NCBI GenBank assembly: GCA_032358165.1
Contig: JAALGY010000034.1
Span: 310,001-374,000 of the forward strand
Direction: 5' to 3'
Length of the DNA: 64,000 bases
Source of the DNA: Diplosphaera chodatii
Taxonomy: Eukaryota > Chlorophyta > Trebouxiophyceae > Prasiolales > Stichococcaceae
The notes below the pieces were generated by a model. That model did not search any database. It was not told the DNA's origin and saw only the letters and a program-made list of their open reading frames with translations. Below, piece by piece: positions 24,657 through 64,000 of this stretch. A program made the translations under genes and the position numbers. Position 1 is the first letter of the stretch. Every line of letters begins with the position of its first letter.

Positions 24657-27129
24657 TTATGCAGAGCCATTTTCATCTGCAACTGCCCTATGCCCGCTGC
24701 TGTCAATTGGCGGCACCTTTAACAGGATAGCGGTTGCGCTGCGCACGGATTTGGCCCAAGCACCAGTTCCCTCTTCACAAAGCACCCACCAATGATGGCT
24801 GTCGAACCTGAAGCCGGCCTGCGTTGCATGCAAAGCGCGGGCAGCTTGTTTTCGGTCAGCCGGATGAGTACAACTGCCTGATCGCAGTGGCCTGGGTGTG
24901 ATCGACTGAACAAAATCGGACAATTGGACACAAGGCGTCAGCACCAGCGCACCTCGTTGAGCCATGTCACATCCTGTGCAGCCGTTGGCTTATGATATAA
25001 GAACGCTCGCGCCCTATCATGCTCGTCAGCCGAGTATGACACAGATGCAAAATCGGAAAGCATTGTGTCTTTGTAGATGTCGATGATCTGGTACCAGTCC
25101 CGAGGCGGGCCCCCCGCGTCGTCCTCTTCCTCATCTGCAAGGCAGTCCAAAGAACGAAGCAGTCGAAGGGGCAGGGTTTAGGTTTGGCATAATGCATCTC
25201 TATCACCTAGGCTTTGCACTGGACCTGAACACAACAGACATGACATGGCCGGGCAGCTGTTTGCTGGATGCTCGAGATAGATGTAGGGCTTGACTGCGTA
25301 TACGTGCACCAGTTTGAAGTGAAACATCTGCTGCATGCACTCCATTCGGGTGAAGCATGTCGCTAGCATGTGCCACGGCATGCCAAACACACCTGAGCTG
25401 TATGTGGGCCAGCGTTCTATCTCGTCCTCTATGTGATCATTGAGGAAGACGTACTTCAGTACAGGTTGCAGCCGCAACTGCTCTGCCACGATGAAAGCCA
25501 GGAGGTCTTGGCTTGCAACGTCACACTTAGAAGGAGACAACATTCACCTTATCGCATGTTGATGTATGCTGGCGTAAGTCAGTGTTCAGGCTTGTTGTCT
25601 GCAGCAGTCTGTCATGTGGTTGCTGATGATGTGAGCATAGGCCCACCCTTCAGCATGTCGTGCATCAGCCGGCTGCCTTTGATGCCGTGGTGATACTTTT
25701 GGCTGCATGCTATCCCCAAGGTCCCGCCTGCATGTCCATGATTTGGCGCGTGAAACGCCTTGAAGAAGCACCGAAGGATCGTGCATTTGATGGGATCACC
25801 CTCAACACCAAATGCAGCGCGCGGTTCAAATGTCATCAAATGTGTACTTTTCAGAGACCTGAAGGCATGAATGTTGGGCTACTGACTGCTGCATGCAATG
25901 CTCCGAAAAGCGCGCTGCTCTCAATTGTTGACGGGTCGACTACAGGGGTGGCCGGCATGTCTGCCGGACGCGTGCTTCTTGCGATCAGTTCGTATCTGAG
26001 AATGACCCCTAGTCACCGGCTCAACCTGCAACACGCATAAATATGCGTCATCAGGAGCTACTAGTTGCTAGCGTCCACCAATAATAACGAAGGAGCTTAG
26101 TGGATGTGAGTGCAGCCAACCGCCTGCATACGAGGTGCTGGCCCTAAATGAGTGGAGGGAGGCTTTTGGCCCTTGCATATTGACCGAAACTTGGTACACC
26201 TCTTCGTGATAGTCAGAGTTGAAGGCTGCCCAGTGTGCCGTGTCGCGACTTGCACTGTCCTGGGTGCCCCAGCTGGTGCAAGCCTATACAACCACTCGAT
26301 TAGTGTTCACCTCGAAATCCGACAACAAAGCAGCTCGCTCGTCAGAAGCATTGGTTGCACTCCATGGTCATCGCACAACTGGTCTGGAGGCGAGGAATCC
26401 TACAACTCTGCAACCGTCATGCGTGGCATCAGATCAGACGTGCAAGCCAAGCTTGAGTCTGCCTTTGTGATGTATCATCAACCCGCCGCCCTGATGGGAA
26501 AAAGGCAGGCAGACTATCAGCAAGCCAAAGTGGTCGTCAGAGCGGGGTGTGTCCTGCGAGACCAGCAGACTCACTCTTGGTATATGTCATGATGTGTATG
26601 CACTGGTATCGAAGCAATCATACATCATGCAAGTATGACATTGCAACAGTGCGCTGGTGCAGACTTTGTATCTATGCCATTGGTAGCCATGTGGCACACA
26701 GAGCCACACCTGGTGCGCCTTCAAAACCCCGCCGGGTCCGCAAACACTCAGCTGGTGCAGGCGGGCTGTGAGTGACTGGGCGTCTGGCATGAGCAGCGAG
26801 CGCACATCCCGCAGAATGTCATGCGCTGCGAGGTCGAAGCTGGTAGCAAAGCGGTCGGCAGGCAGGATCATAACTTGCTGGTTGCTGTCGTCCAGCTGTA
26901 CTGAACACGAACAGTCAGTGTAGGACATTGCAGCTGGTGCAGCAACTCCATCGTCTCAGGGCATGACTCATATTGCTCACTACCACTCGGGCGCCACTTT
27001 GCAGTGACTATGGGACAGCATTCCTGTGCAGGTTCCCCGAAAGGCATGGCTACCTTGTTTGACCCTGGCTCAGCTGCTTCCGCTGGCTCACATGCATCCA
27101 TCAACGGCTGCAGCGCGGCTGCGTCTACA

Positions 27130-27149
27130 CACTAGCAATACACATGATG
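27130..27149 (+). repeat. Left terminal inverted repeat of the CACTA element
   Basis: CACTAGCAATACACATGATG. It pairs with the right end except at a few positions and is preceded by the target copy ACA. Confidence 0.9.
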
Positions 27150-27460
27150 TGCCGGCACCCTCCCAGCAGGGGTGCTGAGGCAGCGAAGTTTTTCACAAGG
27201 GTGCCGGCACCCTGCTGAGACACCTTCATTGGTCGATGCTCGGTCCAAGCACCCTGCCGGCAGGGGTGCCGGCAGGGTTCAAAGGCGCAGGTCATGCCGA
27301 CCAGCGCTTCTTGCTATGCTGGCAGGGTGCCAGCACCCTGCTGAGAAATTCCACACAATTGACGCTCAATAGCACTTTGATATTGCCAGCAGGGTGCCAG
27401 CAGGTCTAACGGGCGCGAGTCGTGCCGACCGGCGCCTATTGCTACGCTAAGTCCCCAGCA
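27150..27460. repeat. Left subterminal palindromic repeats
   Basis: Many variants of a GC-rich palindromic word, including a perfect GGGTGCCGGCACCC at 27199-27212 and several GGGTGCCAGCACCCTGCTGAG-like forms. Spacing is irregular. Confidence 0.85.
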
Positions 27461-27483
27461 GCCGTTTCCTGCCTACCGGGGAA

Positions 27484-29624
27484 CATGGGCAGCCGTGCTA
27501 TATATAGCGCTAGCTAGCATTGCGGGGTGCACCATTTATAACCACACGCCACCGTACCCAGACCATGCATGTCTCAGCCTTCAACGTACACAACTGTACA
27601 CGTCCCTAAGCTGACAATACTCAGGGAATTATGAACTTTTGGGAAGGCTGACCCGCTGCGGGTCGGCCCAATTAAATCATACTTATTCCACAGCCAGCAT
27701 GTCCAACCAGATGGCAAAAGGAATTTGCCAAGCGGTTTCCTATCAGGCCCAGTGAGTATCAAATGCCCAATCGGTCCAAACCTCCAACGCTCCAAGCCAG
27801 CTGCCCAAGGTCATCAATTGTGCTGTAGATGTGCACGACATACGTTTGCAGCGCAAGCACTGCAGCCATCAGAACAGTGCACGGTATCTTTAGGTTGCTT
27901 CTGCACAGGAGCCATGGCCCCGTCGCCAGACGCGGCAGATGGAGAGACAGTGACATCCTTGCAGATCAGCACGACGCACCCGCGGGGAGCGAGGCTGTGC
28001 CACCCGCAGACCGTGTGCATGCCAGCAGACATCATTGCGCAGGGCCCTGAGGGCTGGACTGAAGCGGTGCTCCGGAGCAAGGTGACCATTGAGTGCTTGT
28101 CAACACAGACATCGGCCCCATGCAAGACCAGGCAGATGTTCTGCTGCAGCCCGACATCAGAAACAGATTCTCCCATGCTATGTTGTGTCTGGTGTTCGTC
28201 TCCGCATCTTCATCTGCAACTGTCATCGGTGTTGCCATCCAGATGTGAATGCAGAATGGCACAGACAGGCAGTCTTGTTACATGTGCATCTCAGGCAGGG
28301 CGGTGGCCATGCTGACAGACACTACTGCTATCTTCGCAGGGTATCATAAGCTCCTGCGATGGTGTGCTGCAGCGACTGCGAGGATGCTGCTTTGCACTGC
28401 TAGCCCATCCCGCCAGCACTGGGCAGGCCCGCCATTGTGCTGCCTGCAGCATTGGCTGCTGACCTAGCCCGCAAGGTTCGCACTGATGTGCAGGAGCTGC
28501 CGCAGTGCAGTAAGCAGTCGCATGGCTTTCAGCGCTTGCACCTGCTCCTACCGTCATCTGGCTAATCAACGGCGCAAGGTTGGGCCTGACCAGGGTGTGA
28601 TGACCGCTCTATGCCTTGACTCTGCTGAGAACCGTCCACTGTTGATAAGCTGCTCAACCCTCGCGTATTGTACAGCGTGCCATGCTGCAGGTCGTAACAT
28701 TCAGCGCAGCAGATGCCAACAGATGGGTACACTGTCAGCGCAGCACCACCACTTGCTAGCAAGCTGTGGCGGGACTAGGACAACGTCGCCAAGGTGAGCA
28801 GCATGCCAGCCCACCGCACATGTCAGCGCTTCACGTGCAACTGACAACTTCCTTGCAAGGCTGCACCGGCTTTGTGAACGATTAATAGGGCCACATCCTC
28901 TGCCTGTTCAAGCAAGACTATCCTTCCAGATTGTCTGCAGTGTAGCGTGCGCATCAACACCTCTGCCCCTTGGTGTGGATGCAGATCTATGGCGGATGAT
29001 CCCACATAGCGACTGACTCCTGCAGTTGTGCCCATGGAAGCGCAAGGTGTGTTGCCTATCCTCTGCCCTGCAAACTTCCCTCACCCTGTTGGCATTGGCA
29101 TTGGCAATCAACAGTCATCAATGCACGCTGCATGGTGACCATCTTGGAGTGACGGTGCCAACGGATTCACGACGAACGTGGATGAGGTGCTGAGCTGCTG
29201 ACAATGGAACTGCAGGTGCTGACAGCAGTTGCCCGGTACGTCCTCTGCTACGGTGGACGAGCGGCAAGTGAAGCAGGCTGTGGTTTCAGCTGGATGCCAG
29301 CCTTAGCGGCGGCAGCGGCATGCGGCTCAAGGCATCCTAGTTGTGGAGCAGGGGCTTCATGCCAGCAGTCGTTCAGTCTGCAGACACGGCTTGCTAAACA
29401 GTCAAGACAGCGCAGCCAGGCAGAACCATCTCGCAGATCTGCATGATCTTGGTGCTGCACGGTGCGTGCGCATCAAAAGCTTGCTTGCGCAGCGCACACG
29501 TTGTTGCAGCTGGATTTCACTTGGCAGTATGCATGTTGGGAGCATGGTCGCCTGTCACTGTGCTTGCAAAAGCGTGTCACGAAGCTGTGAGAAGCTTGAC
29601 AAGAGCCTGAGGGCTTGTGGCCTC
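27484..29624. other. Transposon interior, no recognised gene
   Basis: A TATATATA box lies near 27500. A plus-strand open segment at 27914-28170 begins MAPSPDAADG after a possible acceptor and contains EGWTEAVLRSKVTIECL. It could be an exon of an element-borne or captured gene, but nothing ties it to a transposase. The rest shows only short frames. Confidence 0.3.
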
Positions 29625-30285
29625 AGCCGGGCACTCCCTGGCACACTGCCAGCACCCTGCCTGCACCCATCAACCGACAATTCGGCGGCCGCCGAACAGC
29701 AACTTACGCACCCCTGCTGGAACCCCCTGCTGAGAATTTCTCACCCTGCTGGAAAACTGAAGAAAATTGTAGCAGGGGCTGCCGGCAGCCTTGCCGGTAC
29801 CCCTGCCGGCATCCCTGCTGGCACCCCTCTGCAAATCAAAGCAAGGCATACCCCTCCCAGCATCCCCCTGCCGAGAGAGGGTGCCGGCACCCCCTGCCGG
29901 CGTGCCCAATATTCAGCAGCCCTGCAAGCACCCCCGTCGGAAAGTTGGGTCTGCTGGTTCCCAGCGATGGGTTCCCATCGTGAGAGGCTTCCATCGCGTT
30001 TCATGGGAACCAGCGCTGGGAACCAGCGGTACCATCGATGAGTTTTGGGTTGGCCCAACGCTGGGAATGCGAGTGAGCAAACCCATCGTACCATCGCGAC
30101 GTTTCCATCGCGACCCATCGCGATGATGGGAGCGATGGGTATCCAGCGCTGGATATCGGCGCTGTTGCTGCGCTCGATCCCATCAATCGACCGATGGGTC
30201 GCCACGATGGTTTCATTTGGTACGTACCAAAACGTTCAGCGCGGTCTAGACGGGCAACGTAGAGGCTGACACGCACCCTAGGCCC
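29625..30285. repeat. Internal palindromic repeat array of the CACTA element
   Basis: Two word families: GCCGGCACC/CCAGCACCC types (29625-29935, with a perfect GGGTGCCGGCACCC at 29879-29892), then CCAGCGCTGG and CCATCGCGA/CGATGGG types (29936-30285). The second family reappears inverted at 31140-31310. Confidence 0.8.
29936..29990 (+). repeat. Internal inverted repeat, left arm
   Basis: Matches the reverse complement of 31243-31304 in two perfect blocks of about 29 and 24 nt, separated by a 9-nt indel. Confidence 0.9.
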
Positions 30286-31139
30286 CGCATAACACTTTGT
30301 AGCATGTAGCATGACAACGCAAGCGACCGTTTCTGCCACGAGCGTAGCACATGGACCGTGCATGTCCTCAGTGCCCACCCGTTAGGAAGAGGATTAGCTG
30401 TCAGAAGGGGTTCCCTATTCAGGTGCTTCCCATCACTGCAAAGTTGCCGTTGAGCACTTGACCGGTTTGACGTCCATCTGTCGAAACCGTCAGGCCACAT
30501 TGCAGCACAACGCCACCCAGCCCTGGGCCGCCTCCGCATCCGTAGCCACATGTAAGTGGTCTGCAACATTCACGGGCTCATAGCCGTGGCTGCATGTCCC
30601 AACACGCACAGTTGCAGGTTGTCTAGGTGCTGTTCGGCCAACGTCCCAGGCCCCGACGGGACCAGGAACAGCAAGGCGCGTAGACCAGGTGCAAGATCAG
30701 AACTCATTGCAAGCATGTCTGCGTCGGCACATGCATGCGGCTGGACGCGAGGCATTGCACCTTGGCAACCAACTGCAGTGAGATCGCCCAACTGCTCCTG
30801 ACAATATCTATCAGTCCAGAGGCCGGCACCGCATGGCGCGGATCAACAAGCTGCTGTATTGAATTGCGTCAGTGCATCGCCAGCGTGCCGTGTGCTGTTG
30901 TGAATCTTGCGGCGCTGTGGCACCGGAGCTGTCGCACACCAGATCGGCACAGCAGGGCGGGCGGTCACGCCATCTCGCACGCAACTGGGGTGCACAATCA
31001 CTGCGTCATACCATCTACACATGCACATGCACAGCTGCACGCGCTGCGGCCAGCTCTGGCTCCAAAAGCAGTTGGCGTTTGCGGTGGGTTACCACCGCTG
31101 CACAGGCAGATCCAGTGCTGGAACTCAATGCAACCAGCG

Positions 31140-31371
31140 CAGTTCCCATCGGCCCCCAAACCATCGGCTCACACAACCAGCGCTGAGAACCCATCATGAC
31201 CAGCGCTCGATTAATCGAGGGGTTGAGAAGCCTCCCATCGTGGCCTCTCACGATGGGAACCCATCGTGACCAGCGCTGGGAACCAGCAGACCCAACTTTC
31301 CGACGCCTGCTGAGAGTTTGTGAAGAGAACATTGTCCATCACTCAGCAGGGTGCCAGCAGGGGTGCGGGGG
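31140..31371. repeat. Right subterminal repeats, including the inverted-repeat right arm
   Basis: CCATCGTG and CCAGCGCTGG words (31140-31304), including the right arm 31243-31304, then CAGCAGGGTGCCAGCAGGGGTG next to the terminal repeat. Confidence 0.85.
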
Positions 31372-31390
31372 CTGATGTATATTGCTAGTG
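31372..31390 (-). repeat. Right terminal inverted repeat of the CACTA element
   Basis: Read on the minus strand: CACTAGCAATATACATCAG. Followed on the plus strand by the target copy ACA. Confidence 0.9.
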
Positions 31391-31720
31391 ACAGATGGCA
31401 GCTGCACAGCGAAGGGCTGCCCAGCCTGGTGCTGCCCGTACACATCTATCTTGGCGGTCAGCTGCACTGCACCCTGGCAGGCAGCAGGCCGTCTGCCATG
31501 TCGCAACGCAGAGCGGATGCTGCGTAGCGCAGCGCACATCTCAGGCGGCGCTTTGCTGCCATCATCAGAAGGTGCTGCCGCAGCAGAGGGCACAGGGAAC
31601 GGGCGGACGGTGGAAAGCTGCCTTAGTGCATTGAGACAGATGCTGCCGGGCTGTGATGACACGGATGCGCAAGCTTGGCAACAACTGCGGGGCAATGCCT
31701 GCAGACAAGGTGCTCAGCAT

Positions 31721-31965: not shown

Positions 31966-34714
31966 ATGCTGAGGGCGCTGTCCGCCGGCGCTGGTGCACA
32001 GCCATTGTGGCAGGTTCTGCGCAACCCTGCTATCGCAAGCAGCCAGCCACGGCCAACATGCAGGGCGTTCTCACGGCATCTTTTGTTTTCAAATGCTGCA
32101 ACACCGTCTGATGGGGAAGGTACCGAAGGTTCACCGCCCGAAGACCACGCTGCACTGAGCAGCATCCGCAGCGCACTGCAGGACGGCAAGCGAGCTGTCA
32201 TGTGCCAGGGCACCGTGCAGCTGGGCTCGCCTGTCAGCGTCTTCGGACAGGATGACGCCGGCCAGCACTTCGCCGTGCAGCTGCCGCCCGCCAATGACGC
32301 AGCGCTGCAGCCGCTCCTGGATGCATGTGTGCCCGCGGTGTTTGGTCGAGGGGCCGAGGAGGTACTGAACAACTGATGGCACATACATCAGCGTGTATAT
32401 CACTTCGCAAAATGTGTACACACTGCACACACGGACTGCTGGCATACTGCATGCATGGATAGGAAGTACACGCAGGGTTGCAAAGCCAACGGCATACCAA
32501 CTCTCTACCTGCGAGTCTCTGGTACCCTACGGTAGGTGTTGGACGACAGCTACAGGCGGGCCCTGGCTTTGCCTGCCGACCGCTTTGGCATCACATTCGA
32601 CCTGTCAGCGCACCCCATCCTCTGGGATGTGCGCTCGTTGCTCATGCCAGATGCCCAGTCGATCAGAGCCCGCCTTCACAAGCTGAACATCTATGGGCCT
32701 GGCGGCTTTTTCAAGCAGCACAAGGTGTTGTTTGCTTATGTTACCGTGGTCCAAGGAGCAGCTGACGATTTCAGTGCTCTATGCTCGCAATCCTTTCAAA
32801 GCGACTGCATGGCACATTGGCAGGTTCAGTGTGCGACACACGCCCAGACATGTAGCAGTGCCAGTTATTGAATCTTGTCTCCCAACTGGCAGGACACGCC
32901 GCGCACTAAGGAACAGTTTGGCTCGCTGGTGATCTGCTTGCCGGTGCCCCATGAAGGCGGCAATCTGCTGGTCCGCCACGCCGGCGACGAGAAGGTCAGC
33001 AACTTCAGCATATGCCCTGTTGCATGATGTCGGGGGCTCCCCTCTGTATGTACACAGATTTGAAACATGGAGATGCAAATCACGATCAAGGTAGAATAAT
33101 ACTTACACCGTGACTGCCATTCTGATCCTGGCCTACTATGAGGCCATGCTGATGCCACTGCAGGCTCGCACCAGCTGGGGCAGTGATGCCGACTCTGCAG
33201 ACTGCACTGTGCGATGGATGACCTTCTACTCCGACTGTGATCATGAGGTGCAAGACCAGCCTGATTATTGGACTATTCCCTAGAGTACTGGTGTGTGTGA
33301 AGCCTGACCACCTCACTTGCTGGCTGGGCCTGCTGTGGCTATGTATGTTGCCCTGTGACATTTGACGTGCCCTGTGTCATGTTGCTGCCCTCTGTCATCA
33401 ATGTACAGACATGTTGGTGCGCCCGTAGGTCGAGCCAGTCACAAAGGGTCACCGCATCACACTGACATACGAGCTGACTGTGGACAGCGCAACCCAACGT
33501 GACACCCCTGCAATGGACCCCGGCACCGTCAACGGCACTCCCATGTATGCCGCCCTGCAAGCGGCCCTGGATGACCCGACCTTCCTGCCAGCAGGTGCGC
33601 CGCACCCTCACGAGCTCTCATTTCCCAATGCTGGTGAGGGTATTATTGATGGGTGCATCGACCCGATGTTACAATCGCTGCCCCATGCATGCATCTCTGG
33701 CTTGCAGGCGGGACCCTGGGCATAGCTTGTAGCCACAAGTACTACCGCAGCATTAGAGGCAACCGGCTGACGCAGGACATGCTTAAAGGTGTGCGTTGTC
33801 TGATATCTGATAAGTCATACGACAGCATCCGCAACAAAGGAGACGGTACATCATAGACCACAGCTTCATCAGCATTGCAGAATGGAGCGCTTTCCCTCTT
33901 ATAGTCCATTTTCATGCGCACGTAGGGGAAGACGCACTGGCTTTTGCTGTGGCCGAAGAGCTGCAGCTGGACCCGTGTCTAATGTACCTGTTTGCTGAGG
34001 AGGACTACAACGACATGTCAGACTGGGGTGTGCAATTCAAACATCTGCAGTGATGCTGCAGTATATCTGGCTCAATGCAGCGGCGCACAGTCCCCATTTA
34101 TTAAGTGCCCCCACTTCACCACCAGCCATCACACATAATGAGCCATTATTGTTGCTTCACTACGTCGTGACAAACCACTCGTAGTCGGGTAAAACACATC
34201 ATCTTCCGTGTGTTCAACAGCATATAGTTGAATAGTTTTTGAAACCAGCTGACCTGCACATATCAGTTGCCGAACCTGATGATGTGTAGATGCGGAAGAG
34301 GCCTTTCCAGGGGCGCGGCCAAGGAAGTGGTACCAGCTGCTTGACCAATACAAAAAGATCATGCTGTTGGACTGGGATTTTCAAGAGGGCAGCGAAAGGG
34401 ATATACTGGAACACATGGGGGCCGAGACAGCAGAAGGGGTGGTGTGGCTCAATGAGGTGCATGGTGCTCACATGCAATTGCGTTGTGCATGGCATACCGC
34501 ACAATGCTATGAACATGTCGCAAAGCTGAATTTCCTCCATGTTACAGATCTTCTGATGATTGTGGTGCAGGCCGATCTCAATTTCGACAACGAGCATATG
34601 ATTGTAACATATGGCAATGAGGCTGGCGCAAATGAGGTGTACAGTGCAGCTGCAATTCTATTAGAAGTGCCGCCGGTGGATAGCAATGGACATAGAGCTG
34701 ACGAATTCGAGTGA
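31966..34714 (+). CDS. 2OG-Fe(II) dioxygenase-like protein copy 3, intact (476 aa)
   Basis: Nine exons, all GT-AG: 31966-32361, 32536-32724, 32893-32994, 33164-33247, 33429-33594, 33708-33788, 33926-34027, 34290-34456 and 34571-34714. They total 1431 nt with consistent phases. The family oxidises an organic substrate with O2 and 2-oxoglutarate; the substrate is unknown. Ligands are all present: H-K-D across the exon 2/3 junction (His194, Asp196), distal His256 in FYSDCDHE, and Arg266 in VTKGHRITLTYEL as the likely 2-oxoglutarate anchor. VPHEGGNLLVRHAG is the usual strand between them. The N-terminus (MLRALSAGAGAQPLWQ, then Arg/Ser/Ala-rich) could be an organelle presequence. The ~220-residue C-terminal half (GTLGIACSHKYY ... 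VYSAAAILLEVPPVDS) is shared by all copies. This is the only full copy here with both frame and ligands. Confidence 0.88.
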
Positions 34715-34973
34715 GGATGGGAAATGAACATTTTGCAAGCTGGAACATGCGTTACCTTGAAACCTGTGACTATGAGACGAGCACCTGCAAAAGAGTTTAC
34801 AGCATAGCACATTGCTGGCGGTGCAACATCTGCCATGGCCCCAGGGCATGACTCATGTTGCATGGTATCACTCAAGTGCCAGTGCGCAAATCAAAAAGCT
34901 CAGTACAGCATCCTGGGTAAGTGCCCAGGCCATGACTACCTTAACCAGCCCTGGGTTACCTGCTGTCGCTGAT

Positions 34974-35312
34974 TCAAATGCGTGTAGGAGGCTGTAGCCC
35001 GGCTTCGTCTACAGGTGGCAACTTCACAACAAACGGCGTACCGACTTGGTTTTGGCCGCAGACACCTTCTCTAGTAGTCAGCTGCACTGTAACCCTGCTG
35101 GCAGGCAATAGGGCGTCTGCCGTCTCAAAGCGCGAGCGCATGCGCAGCGCAGGGCACATTTCAGGAGGTGCTTTGCTGCCATCACCAGAAGCTGCTGCGG
35201 CAGCAGTTGCGCAACAAATGGGCTGACGGCGTGAAGCTATACCACTCTGGCGGGGCGTCAACACATGGTTGCGCAAGTTTGGCAATGGACATGCATCTAT
35301 GCCAGCACACAT
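34974..35312 (-). pseudogene. Orphan 2OG exon 1, minus strand
   Basis: Resembles exon 1 of copy 2 (SGDGSKAPPEMCPALR ... GTPFVVKLPPVDEAGLQP). It has a small deletion after LQP, and the following ~110 bases still resemble intron 1 of copy 2. No further exons follow before the stop of copy 3 on the other strand. Together with the plus-strand fragment at 35630 it forms a duplicate of the divergent pair at 31.4-32.1 kb. Confidence 0.75.
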
Positions 35313-57961: not shown

Positions 57962-60190
57962 ACCTGGGTCACCAGGCTCGTGGTCGAACGTCGGCTCCCC
58001 AGCCAGCCGGGGCGCCAGGGATATCAGGCATGCGAGGGCGATGCGCCGCTGGGCATCGCCCTCGTGACCGGCGGCGCTGCGCGAAGCAACACACCATCAC
58101 TTCAGGGTTTGCACCGCACCGCTCGCAACGAAGCAGGAAGTGCATTCTGGCTGAACACTGCATGTTGTCGGTCTGCAGTGGTCAAACAATCAGCTCTGGG
58201 ATGTGCAGCACTCCTATCTGACATACCGCAGCATGCATTGGCGATCACGATGCCACGATGTACAGGTACCAGCTGGCAACAGAATCCTGCAACCTTCACC
58301 GCAGCAGCGCACAGCAGATGTCTCACATGCACATGTAGACGATGCTGCTGAGGACTTCTGCCTCCAGCTCCGGCGCAAAGGCCGCCGTGGCATCCAGCGC
58401 CGCCAAGAGAAGCGATGGGGCAGAGGCTGTTGGAGACCATGACTGCCTGACAGACAGACAGACGAGCCGATCAGCAGACTGCCCATGGCGCAGCAGACCA
58501 GCAGCGTGCACTTATAAACATGGTCCATCATCACAAGGAAGGCAATGTCAACAGCTCTGATGGTGATCGCGATGACTCCCACCTGCCAGCCTGCAGCTGC
58601 GGAGCTTCCAGCATCGCGTTTGCGGCCGCTACACACTTTCTTGCTGCCCAACCGGCCAGCAGCACTGCTGGAGAAGGCCTGACACCCGCTGTGTTATCCG
58701 CCAGTGCTGCTCTAGCCGTGGCAGCAGACAGGTGGCACAGCAGCAGCACTGCAGCTTGCGGCGCCAGCGGCTGCAGATGCATGATGGTGGTGTCATCTGT
58801 TTGCTTGTTGTCTGCCGATGGCAGCTGCTGTGCTGATGACAGACATTGTGCTGCCCCTGTCGATGCTGCTGGGTCTGGAAACGCCGCCACACCGATGGCG
58901 TCAGCCGCCACATCCGTGGCTGGGGTGTCGGATGCCATGCTGCTGGCTGCATCAGCAGCAGTGCCGCTGACGCTGCTGCAGAGAACCTCTGCAGCGTGCT
59001 TCAGCAGCTGCCAGCCTGTGGGCCACATCTGCAGTGCTACCAGCAAGCCTGCTGTGTCGGCAGCCACTTCCATGCGAAGTGCCTCTGACCCAAGCAGAAC
59101 TGCCGGTGTCGACAGCAGCGGCAGCAGCAGCTGCTCAATGGCACGAGTCTCCGCTGCCATCGCCAGCGACTGGTCACCATCTGCAGGTTGGTGCCAGTCG
59201 ATCCTTACGCATCCCGTATCCTACTCGCTGTTCATCTGCACATGCGGGCATCATGTGTGCAATTATGCGAGGCGCAGGATGTGAGCACGCACCTGCTAGG
59301 CTTGCAATATGAAGCAGGAGCTCCACAGCGCACGCTGCATGCATCAGTAGCAAGTACGCCGGTGCAGTTGCCAAATCGCCTTCTATCTGCTCGCTATCCT
59401 GAAAATATTGGCAGGCGCGGATGTTGGACCCATGCCACAAAGAAGATGATAGGAGGTCAGCTGCTATGCTCGCCAGCGACGTCAGCTTGCATGCAGTAGA
59501 TCCTGAGTACTGCGAGCAAGAGTCAGCTTGCACCTGTGCGGAAATGGCATCACGGTAGGCACTGATGGTGGCAGCAACCAGCCGCAGGTACCACGCGGAC
59601 TGGGCCGTTGAGGATTCTGCAGCTGATTCGGGTGCGTTGATGATCGCAGCCCGCACCAGCGCCCTGCGCTGCACCTGCGAAGCATCGGCTGGCAGCGCAG
59701 CCGCGAGGGCTGCCAGCTGGGCTGGCAGCTGCTGCTGCGCCATGCTCAGCTGCAATTCACGGTCTCGCAGTACAATTCCGGGTGGTTTGCCAGCATTGTG
59801 GCTGCCTGATCAGGGAATCACGGAAGCTGATTGGTGCATGTCGGAAGTGCAGATCATCACCCCACATGCAGCGTCAACACACCCTCGGCAATCGACCAGG
59901 GCAGCGCTCGACTAAACAGTCGCATCCTATGCCCTTTCATACCGCAGGTCGCTCAAACTGGTCGAATGTAGCAAAATGCAGTTGGCCAGTTGCAGCGTGT
60001 GCCTGAGGTGTGCTGCAGGGTGGCCATGTGCATTCATCAGTCTCTGGAGGCAGCAACCTTGTTCCACCGTAAAGCGAACATCTCTGATGCTCAGATGGTC
60101 ACAGTTGCTCCACAAGGACGCGAGCATATCGGGCTGCCAGGAGGCAGCAACTAACGCTGTCTGACAGTTGTTGCGGCTACCGTCATACAC
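46832..60190 (-). CDS. TARBP1: TARBP1/Trm3-like tRNA (guanosine-2'-O)-methyltransferase with long helical N-terminal region
   Basis: The C-terminal SPOUT domain is clear. Exons 47965-47820 (LVLVASLVDR, PNLAGLTRTCEVFG), 47611-47530 (LVVADARVTSAREFQQISMT), 47313-47192 (GYTLVGLEQTTDSVPLPDY) and 47006-46832 (LLLGREREGIP, VEIPQHGVIRSLNVHVAAS, stop TAG) join in phase. They match TARBP1/Trm3, which methylates G18 of tRNA using S-adenosylmethionine. Upstream, about thirty Ala/Leu-rich helical exons lie on the same strand, for example near 48250, 48800, 49640, 50100, 50460, 53200, 54550, 55770, 56785, 57190, 57555, 58560-59160 and 59755, as expected of the HEAT-like N-terminal region. The first exon found is at about 60190 (YDGSRNNCQTALVAASWQPD); the start codon is not resolved. 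A split into two genes cannot be excluded. Confidence 0.75.
57926..57961. repeat. (TGC)12 trinucleotide repeat
   Basis: Twelve perfect units. On the minus strand it is (GCA)12. In the frame that continues into ASSLQSDASTDADSEED it would encode polyalanine, but a splice acceptor inside the repeat could exclude it from the mRNA. Confidence 0.95.
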
Positions 60191-60769
60191 CTGGTTCAGT
60201 CAGGCAATGGCAGCATCAGTAGTGTCCTGCAGACAGCAATACTTCCCGCAGAATCGGGTTCGCCGATCGCTGCGCTTCCTCTTAGTCGGTAGATGATCAT
60301 GCGCAGAAGATCCATGCTTGGCAGCCTGACATGCGTGTAAAATGCGTAGGTGCGCCATCCTCATCAATCTTACAGCTGTGGTCGATTGCCAGACAATGAA
60401 TGATGTCGATAAATTACAAATGTCTGCTCGTTTGCAGTCTGCAGACTTCAGCCAGCTCTATGCTAACACGTACCACCAGCAAGACTCAAAGCTACACCCG
60501 TGCAGCATGCCCCTCTCAGTGTGAATACAGCCAGCTTGCAGCTGGCCACTGTTCACACTTGGGGCCGCTCTGTCGGCCGCTGCCCACCAGCCCTCACACC
60601 AGAATTGGCTGCCTGTGTTCAATGCTCAAGCCGTTGTGGCGCCCTTCTCTGAAGGCTGCCCAGTGATCTTGTCCTTGATGGTGGCTCCCGTCGTCAGCGC
60701 TGACACTGCTGGCCGCAGCTGCACATTGCATGCGAATAGCATGATCAGACCATACCAACTATACTGCTT
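60191..60769. other. Region between TARBP1-like 5' end and catalase 3' end
   Basis: About 580 bases that should hold the promoter and perhaps the first exon of the TARBP1-like gene. A minus-strand frame at ~60300-60225 starting MIIYRLRGSAA is a weak candidate. Confidence 0.4.
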
Positions 60770-63700
60770 TCAGGCGCACACCCCACGTACACAGTGCACC
60801 CGCATCAGTGTGCAGTGCGGCTGTATGACTGGCGAGAATGCACACTCTGCAGCCTGAGACATCCCATCCCTAAACCCTGTATCCACCTTGTTGACCAGCC
60901 CGGGGTCGACCCGCTCCCAGATGTCGAACCAGCGCTCCCGCACGCTGTCTGGCAGCTTGGGGTCCGACATCCAGCTGCCGATCTCCTTCAGGAAGATGGT
61001 CTTCCTGCGGACGACAATCACAACATGTGCTCAGCACTGCCGGCACCAGCATGCTTCTTGCGGACCCCACCATATCCCTGGGGTACTGCCCTGTCACGAG
61101 GTGGTTGCCGTGGTAAGGCAGTGAGTGTATATCGAGACCAGAGACAACACCCTTGATGGCTCCTCTGCTATGGTGGCTCCTATTGCATCAGCAGCATTTC
61201 GGTTCCTCTATCTGCAGAAGCCGGCTGGTCTTTCAGCCTGAGTTGCCCGATGCTGCAGTGCTCACCGTGCAATGGACATCTCCCGCCACCGGTCGCCCGC
61301 CTGCTTGTAATCATCCCACTTGCCGCCTGCATTATTGGTGCAATTGCAACAATTTTACACAGTCCACAAGGCACACAGCATACACCTGGCGCGGAACATT
61401 GTCCTACGTGAGTTGCACGATGACAGGAGCATGCTGTCCTGCACGCAACACCTGCAAACTGCAGATGTTGAGGCAAGATTTGCTAAACCCTGCAGCCCAG
61501 CAGGGCTGCAACCCGCCGGCAGCCGGATGCTGGCAGGCCACAGCAGATGTGCTTCCACGCAAACATCTTGACGAAACTTCACTTTACGTAAACAAAATAT
61601 ACGTAAACAAAAGGCGCACCGTTGTCGCCGATGTCCTCCTTGACGCGGTGGCCCTCCAGCTTCTCGTCCTGGGCGTGCTTGAAGCGCGGCGCCTCCACCC
61701 CCCGCGCCCCCGGGTCCTCGTGCTTCGACGACCCCCAGTAGTTCACCTCGCCCACGTTGTGGGTGAAGTTCTGGGACCCGGCTGCGGTGCAGTGAGGATC
61801 ATGTCAGCGCCACACAGCCATGCAGGCACTTGAGTATACTGGCATCAGCTGCGTGCAGCTGAGGGTTGCCGGCAGCAGCGTGCGCACCCTCAGAGTTGAG
61901 GTGGAAGGGGCACTTTGGCGCGTTGATGGGCAGCTGGTCGTAGCTGCAGGGAGAAGGAAGGCCTGTCAGACTTCGAGGAAAACCCCTTGACACGGGGCGC
62001 CTGCACCTACAGCAGCTAGCAGGTAGTCCACATGAGATGGTTGGCAAGGGCGGGCGCAACTACGATGCACTCACTTGACGCCAATCCGGTACCGCTGGGT
62101 GTCCTGGTACGCGTTGATGCGCGATTGCAGCACCCTGTCGTTGCTGTAGGTGATGCCTGCACGCCGAGCGCCCCAGTTTAGCCATGGCGTTGCCTTGATC
62201 GAAGTTGGTGCATGCTTTACATGTGCATCATGAGCATGTGTGGGTGTCGACAGCTAGATCCTGTCGTCACCTGGCACCACCCGCCCTGGCGAGAAGGCGA
62301 TCTGCTCGCTCTCGTTGTGGAAGTTCTCGATGTTGGTGTCCAGCACCAGGCGGCCGATCTGGCGCAGCGGGAACTGGTCTGTGGGCCACACCTGCAGCCC
62401 CACAGTGCACGCCTGTTACTTGAGGAGGGTTGTGCCACAGAGAGCGCCTCGTCATGACCATCCGGCAATTTATGGCTGGAAGGCTTAAAAGCACACCTCT
62501 TCTGACACATATGTATCACAAGCTTTGCAGCCAGGCAGCCTTTTGATCCCATCCCGCTGCAGACTAGTGTCCCACTTGGGTGCGTGCACAGGTATGCCCG
62601 TGTTATGAGCGCGCTCTGCCAGGCAGGCGGCTGCACCTTGGTGGCATCCAGGGGGTCGAAGTCAAAGTTAAGCTGGTCCTGGGGGTCCATCGTCTGGATC
62701 TGCAGGTCCCACTCCGGGTAGTCGCCCGCCGCGATGGCGTTGAACAGGTCGTGCGTCGCGTGGCTGCAGCAAAGCAAAGTGGACGTGCATGTGGACGTGC
62801 ATGTGAATGTGATGCGCCTGCTCATGCCCGTCAGATGCACCTGTTCAGGCAGCGCCCTGTGCTGCAGGGCACTGGTGCTGACACTAATAAACACAACCGG
62901 CACTGATGCAGCAGCCTGCTGCTAGCTCCCTGCACACGTTCTGCTAACCTGTGGACCTTTATGTATGCACAGGCAACCCAGGCAGGGAGGCAGCAGGAGG
63001 CAGGAAGCACCTGTGGCGCATGTTCAGCGCGCCGGCCAGCTGCGCGGTCTCGTCCGTCATGAACTTGGCGCCCAACTTGGGGTACATGTGCCACTGTGAG
63101 GCCACATACAGAACCTCTCGCAGCGGCAAAGTGATAGGTTGGGGTACATGTGCCACTGTAAGACCACATACAGAACCTCGCAGCGGCAAAGTGATAGGCA
63201 GGACATTCAGGCACGGAGCAAGCATGTGCAACAACTGTGTACAGAACATGCTTGCGAGCGACGCAAATCAGACGCTACACCATGCAAACAGAGCTGCAGC
63301 AGCACAGGGTGGGGACGCAATTACTTGCCAGCAGGCGCACCTTCACAAAGGTCTCCTTGCCCTCCTTGTTCACCAGCACGAACGTGTTCACGCCGTACCC
63401 TGCACACAGCATGGGTAGAGCGCTGCTGGTTCGGCGCCTTAGCTGTCAGTACAGGAACGCTACCGTCATGTCATGCTATCACATGTGAGGTCTCTAATCC
63501 TGCAGTGAGCAGTACATCATTTGGCTCTTTACAGTGGACACTGTAAGGAGGAATACCAGAGTAGCTCGCCTTTCCTGGAGCCATCCAGAACCACTGCTGT
63601 ATGTCATTTTGTGCAGCTTAGTACACTTCAAGGAAAGGCTTCCGGACTGGGGTTTGAGGGCCGCACCCTCCTGGTGCCGGTAGTCCGTCGGGAGGCCCGA

Positions 63701-64000
63701 CTCGTCCAGCATCCACGTCAGCATGTGGCAGCTCTCCGGGTAGTTCTGCAGGAAGTCCAGGATGCGCCACGCCTGCGTAACACAGGAACACCTCGTTATG
63801 GGTGTCAATCCGTCGGCAGGGTACTGGCAGCAGATGCCAGACTGTTATGCATAGCGCCACTGTCCATCAGCAAATATGTTGAGGCAGCCGCCTCACCGTG
63901 GCAAGCAGTGTTGTGATGACATCGCATCGAACTGCACACATCTGGCAGCGCCATCATCAGCGTCAATTGTCTTCTGTATCTAAAGCAGGACGCCCACCTC
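60770..64000 (-). CDS. CAT: Catalase, 5' partial
   Basis: Decomposes hydrogen peroxide to water and oxygen with heme, usually in peroxisomes. Ten full exons: 63772-63667, 63399-63341, 63093-63011, 62763-62637, 62391-62271, 62156-62075, 61943-61888, 61781-61620, 61326-61266 and 61004-60770. The last codon of an upstream exon (GAG) is at 64000-63998. All phases agree. Diagnostic segments: [77 protein letters not shown] and [14 protein letters not shown]. The heme-ligand tyrosine is in [13 protein letters not shown]. The first ~165 residues, with the distal His and Asn, lie outside the window. The very C-terminal ~20 residues after [11 protein letters not shown] are uncertain. A tandem duplication surrounds the start of the exon at 63093. 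Confidence 0.92.
63077..63198. repeat. ~60-bp tandem duplication across a catalase 3' splice site
   Basis: Copies 63077-63138 and 63139-63198 are nearly identical. Each holds the acceptor (CAG|TGGCACATG on the minus strand) and the first ~17 exon bases. The inner copy (63093) is the one in frame with the rest of the exon. Confidence 0.95.

Follow-up and report, generated by a model that had tools for sequence, protein, structure and literature searches.

Exon 1 of one gene in a tandem array of 2OG-Fe(II) oxygenase genes of the green alga Diplosphaera chodatii lies in two parts about 4.2 kb apart. The question raised by this locus is what separates the two parts, and in which order the events that led to the present arrangement took place. 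We analysed a stretch of 64,000 nucleotides on contig C28 (the window) together with the whole genome (85.6 Mb on 55 contigs). The initial annotation of the window described one CACTA transposon of 4.2 kb caught inside the exon and flanked by an ACA target duplication.

CACTA elements are defined in the accessible part of PMC10741241 by the termini CACTA/CACTG...TAGTG/CAGTG and by short inverted repeats. Subterminal repeats of a few hundred bp belong to the definition in the portion of PMC8978399 that was available. Here we describe the structure of the insertion, its relatives in the genome, the state of the host gene, and a history of the locus.

The interrupted exon

The host gene, copy 2, is a minus-strand member of the array. 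The coordinates of its exons, of the neighbouring copies, and of both transposons are collected in Table 1. The concatenated exons of copy 3 match the 2OG-Fe(II) family PF13640 (E 8.4e-7, 30.3 bits against a cut-off of 27). At E <= 0.001, 45 relatives were obtained among 7995 candidates scored, and the named ones are mostly fungal.

Direct reading of the window and the comparison of copies place ACA flanks and perfect 11-bp inverted ends exactly where the initial annotation had put them. When the flanks are joined with a single ACA, the two parts of exon 1 give ...AVQLPSVDAAALQPLMDAC... in one frame, as had been claimed, and alignments of the joined site run without a break through five paralogous sites in the window and one on C30. 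Copy 4, the closest in the window, has ACA once; the other four window sites differ at the ACA. The 2OG gene on C30 has an uninterrupted site and carries neither transposon in the 2.5 kb read. The proposal that the split exon of this gene is explained by an insertion is borne out by these six uninterrupted sites. No second full-length match to window positions 25000-27129 was found in the genome, only short paralogous matches, and hence no allele of the left flank.

Table 1. Features of the copy 2 locus, and complete copies and transposase genes elsewhere in the genome (window positions unless a contig is given)
Feature	Position	Strand	Basis or remark
Target site duplication ACA, left	27127..27129	.	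read from window, copy comparison
Terminal inverted repeat CACTAGCAATA, left	27130..27140	+	exact match
Outer element (family A), putative non-autonomous CACTA, left part, 2805 bp	27130..29934	.	similarity to C8 and C22 copies
Subterminal repeat zone, left	27130..27419	.	16/43 motif matches in first 290 bp
Subterminal repeat zone, right	29740..29934	.	15/43 motif matches in last bin; runs to nested element, resumes 31306-31390
2-bp duplication CC of family B, left	29933..29934	.	
Nested element (family B), 1371 bp, ends CGTCGGAAAGTTGGGTC	29935..31305	.	genome-wide similarity, end pairs
Inverted terminal repeat of B, left arm, 36 nt	29935..29970	+	97% complementary to right arm
Inverted terminal repeat of B, right arm	31270..31305	-	
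2-bp duplication CC of family B, right	31306..31307	.	
Outer element, right part, 85 bp	31306..31390	.	similarity to C8 and C22 copies
Terminal inverted repeat TATTGCTAGTG, right	31380..31390	-	exact match
Target site duplication ACA, right	31391..31393	.	read from window, copy comparison
Copy 2 exon 1, 5' part	31391..31720	-	from ATG aligned with paralogues' start; has frameshift
Copy 2 exon 1, 3' part	27054..27129	-	donor border by eye
Copy 2 exon 2	26710..26895	-	open
Copy 2 exon 3	25857..26025	-	8-bp frame-breaking deletion; borders by eye
Copy 2 last two exons (24950-25138, 24684-24818)	24684..25138	-	open
Copy 3, 2OG-Fe(II) oxygenase (PF13640)	31966..34714	+	lacks the element; head-to-head with copy 2; exon borders by eye
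Copy 4 exon 1 fragment, uninterrupted site GTCTACAGGTGGCA	34805..35238	-	single ACA; 70.9% over 446 columns
Complete family A copy, C28 (window)	27130..31390		duplication ACA
Complete family A copy	C8:470412-473285		duplication ACC
Complete family A copy	C22:418251-421089		duplication TTA
tnp2/DUF4218-type transposase gene	C42:6266-10147		within ~10 kb of contig end; PF02992 and PF13960 exons
tnp2/DUF4218-type transposase gene, cut	C26:4336466-4337554		at contig end; PF13960 beside partial match to C42 tnp2 exon

Copy 2 is a pseudogene. Its ATG is offset by 1 in frame from the conserved part of exon 1 (the offset is 0 in copies 1, 3, and 7), and the 8-bp deletion in exon 3 is absent from the five other aligned copies. 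Because of these two further frame-breaking lesions, the CACTA insertion is not the sole cause of the breakage.

At window positions 26197-26238, CEHEV in copy 1 corresponds to YHEEV in copy 2. Copy 2 may here have lost the metal-binding histidine.

Two observations concern the genome at large. Window positions 59025-63776 are collinear with C30:1402492-1407013, where identity is 90-96% in some blocks and 70-83% in others. The genome has 56 matches to the chlorophyll-binding family and two to the RuBisCO small subunit, as fits a photosynthetic eukaryote; several of the former genes and both of the latter occur in pairs of equal or near-equal score on different contigs. The paired genes and the collinear segment suggest two diverged subgenomes or an old genome duplication.

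The outer element and its copies in the genome

The outer element, which we call family A, is 2,890 bp long without the nested part (27130-29934 plus 31306-31390), and its termini match at 11 of 11 bases at both ends. Chance figures within the window say little about it. Exact matches to the terminal 11-mer occur twice, at the two ends themselves; with up to two mismatches 16 are found against 15.5 expected, which is no enrichment. The window contains four pairs of perfect 11-bp inverted repeats that lie 0.3-6 kb from each other and have equal 3-bp flanks, against a mean of 3.7 in 30 windows simulated with an order-1 Markov model, and such a pair is therefore not rare alone. One of the four starts with CACTA, as did none in the 30 simulations. 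The strong evidence for the element comes from the genome rather than from these figures.

A genome-wide search for the 11-mer CACTAGCAATA gave 23 exact matches, compared with 4 for the reversed control pattern. Six of them pair up as three complete family A elements, the window copy included (Table 1). The further copies for which the initial annotation had suggested a search with the ends do exist, and perfect 3-bp duplications flank all three copies that have both ends intact. With the nested part left out, identity of the outer element is 93.0% with the C8 copy and 85.1% with the C22 copy; for its left part, two aligners give 92-93% and 82-85%, respectively. Even the closest copy differs by 7%, and very recent activity is therefore not indicated. 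At each of the joined insertion sites of the C8 and C22 copies, open frames that cross the site reach 129 aa at most.

Two more of the exact matches are the left ends of partial relatives on C45 and at C10:1693872, whose right ends were sought and not found. Decayed or partial relatives include C10:209745-212530, C19, and C25 among others, these counts being lower bounds. The copy at C10:209745 has both ends, in decayed form, and no matching flanks. Across the window, searches with each of the two families returned no further copy besides this locus, so that the element does occur in one place only there, as had been stated.

The other 15 exact CACTAGCAATA matches, still more than the 4 of the reversed control, fall outside all similarity matches listed, whose counts are lower bounds. 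Such isolated matches, for example at C44:1253416 and C51:318210, have no likeness to family A beyond the 11-mer; they may be chance occurrences or ends of other families.

Subterminal repeats were counted as the motif TGCYRGCA / GCAGGG / CCCTGC in ten bins of family A. The window copy has 43 matches, where base-shuffled sequence has 2.6 on average, and they crowd into the outermost bins; each of the eight inner bins has 0-4. The C8 and C22 copies show the same crowding at their ends, which places dense subterminal repeats in all three complete copies. These repeats complete the diagnosis, and family A, judged from its sequence, is of the CACTA type.

A second transposon inside the first

The designation as CACTA holds; that as a single unit of 4.2 kb does not, and about a third of the length is a second transposon, family B. 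In a whole-length search of the genome, 29935-31305 matched other places than the flanking family A parts did, among them C26, C15, C8, C17, C21, C1, and C36. The C8 and C22 copies of family A have no family B element at the corresponding point, and the run of C there is two bases shorter in the C8 copy and one base shorter in the C22 copy. Two-ended copies of family B number nine in the genome (eight besides the one on C28), and a single mismatch occurs in an end of one of the nine. With one mismatch allowed, the ends of family B have 24 matches (19 exact), against 15 for the reversed control. All nine two-ended copies are flanked by 2-bp duplications: CC on C28, TA on C26 and C15, TT on C8, TG on C17, C36, and C10, CA on C21, and AA on C1. 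Repeats crowd near the ends of family B as they do in family A.

Two classifications of family B were tried and rejected. It is not a CACTA family, for its ends read CGTCGG and its duplications are of 2 bp, not 3 bp, in 9/9 copies. Tc1/mariner elements duplicate a TA target. Family B has TA in only two of nine copies, TG in three, and CC, TT, CA, and AA in one each, and does not belong with them. That it represents an undescribed cut-and-paste lineage, with a transposase that would cut at a 2-base stagger and show no preference for TA, is a long shot.

Two members of the family deserve mention on their own account. The longest pair of ends, at C36:915368-919474, spans 4.1 kb with the duplication TG and is a second case of nesting, as it encloses a frame that resembles a LINE reverse transcriptase, judged by eye. 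At C10:231373-233621 an element of 2,249 bp with the duplication TG has only its ends in common with family B and no frame longer than 173 aa; it is perhaps a second subfamily.

Search for a transposase

A Pfam scan of one 226-aa frame in the outer element (27635-28312) gave no match. With the transposase exons of C42 as tblastn queries, neither the outer element, nor seven related loci, nor the nested element gave a match below E 0.5. A tnp2-type DDE transposase is required only of autonomous CACTA members. As these searches found no transposase inside it, family A is best read, on present sequence evidence, as a non-autonomous CACTA element.

Elsewhere in the genome, the PF02992 profile found C42 only and the PF13960 profile C42 and C26. 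The tnp2 exon of C42, used as a genome query, returned its own locus and, where C26 ends, a partial match, and in a database search it returned two relatives. Around the C42 gene no convincing pair of terminal repeats was seen in 9 kb and then in 14 kb. The initial annotation had proposed a search for a related element encoding a CACTA transposase. No transposase-bearing element with CACTAGCAATA ends was found in the genome, and the tnp2 genes on C42 and C26 have no recognisable ends. Given the position of the C26 gene at a contig end, gaps in the assembly may conceal copies.

History of the locus

We consider the following history very likely. A tnp2-type transposase supplied from elsewhere in the genome would have moved the 2,890-bp non-autonomous CACTA (En/Spm) element in trans and pasted it into exon 1 of one tandem copy of the 2OG-Fe(II) oxygenase gene, and repair of the 3-base stagger would have duplicated ACA. 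The 1,371-bp family B element would then have inserted into the subterminal region on the right side of the CACTA element and duplicated CC, and the carrier gene was probably lost at or around the insertion.

Copies 2 and 4 had already split when the CACTA insertion took place. The idea that it can be dated against the tandem expansion stands to this extent, as a relative date. In the trees of copies, the terminal branch of the outer element measures 0.033 substitutions per site and that of the nested element 0.023; as upper limits, these lengths say nothing on the order of the two insertions. That B inserted into A, as read from the sequence, is certain because of the nesting. Most likely it did so after A had landed in the exon, since two other complete family A copies are without B.

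Some other accounts of the locus have to be weighed against this one. The outer ends match across the whole span, as they would if 29935-31305 were simply the interior of one 4.26-kb CACTA element. This account is refuted, and we give it practically no credence: the C8 and C22 copies are without that interior, which is found by itself at other places with ends and 2-bp duplications of its own (nine two-ended copies in all). It is also conceivable that B had entered A at another site and that the composite of 4,261 bp then jumped into the exon as one. The outer ends and the ACA duplication would be identical under either order, but B is missing from both other complete CACTA copies and no other composite occurs among the matches listed, whose counts are lower bounds. 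We regard a joint jump as unlikely. A question of a different kind is whether copy 2 was already dead when it was struck, in which case no working gene was affected; this is compatible with the history that we favour, and we would put it only a little short of an even chance. The two additional frame-breaking lesions point that way, as does the nearest paralogue, copy 4, which is itself a fragment with several indels. On the other side, no other copy in the alignments shares the lesions, which may thus postdate the insertion, and most of the remaining exons have an open frame.

Splicing of a defective Spm element in maize offers a precedent for one more account, in which the whole insertion would be removed from the transcript like an intron and the local frame restored. 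Candidate sites can be named: the GT of the duplicated target as 5' site (CCATCT/GTCACTAG) and the AG of the terminal repeat as 3' site (TTGCTAG/TG). Splicing there would give the junction CCATCT/TGTGTAGAC, open in frame, with three extra bases and one added residue (PSCVDA). Against this, the intron would be 4,261 bp long, and the frame of copy 2 is broken elsewhere, by the offset of 1 in exon 1 and by the 8-bp deletion in exon 3. Splicing is unlikely to matter because of these other lesions, and a rescue of this kind is very improbable.

With the CACTA insertion and the later arrival of family B as the preferred reading, the locus can be read as a series of steps in which a gene was duplicated, a CACTA element inserted and left a footprint of 3 bp, and an inner element left one of 2 bp. 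The exact ends of two algal transposon families are now defined, and their autonomous partners can be searched for with them. The 4.2-kb element needs to be split into two before it is annotated or dated.

Comparison with known systems

Introners, in the part of PMC9860276 available to us, carry a 3' splice site and borrow the 5' site from the target duplication, and in one case they add bases. The copy 2 insertion is like them in its coding-exon site, in a duplicated target with GT, and in a terminal repeat with AG. It is unlike the introners of that account in its length of 4.3 kb, in the frameshifts elsewhere in the host, and in that its splicing is hypothetical; after such splicing the host frame would be kept locally and broken in exons 1 and 3.

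The titles and opening lines of abstracts in the literature surveyed contain no description of family A or B, and the available portions of PMC8226300 and PMC4158355 do not touch on CACTA elements of green algae. Families A and B count as new only insofar as these titles and opening lines do not mention them; they are of known kinds and move by known mechanisms. Family B is like other inverted-repeat DNA elements of unassigned superfamily in its inverted ends, subterminal repeats, and target duplications, and differs from them in the variety of its 2-bp duplications (CC, TA, TT, TG, CA, AA) and in its CGTCGG ends. Family A differs from the CACTA (En/Spm) system in that no transposase was found inside it and no autonomous partner in the genome, but shares with the non-autonomous elements of that system the CACTA...TAGTG ends, the short inverted repeats, the 3-bp duplications, and the dense subterminal repeats (PMC10741241 and PMC8978399, in the parts available). 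As a whole, the case illustrates known transposon behaviour clearly, without being out of the ordinary.
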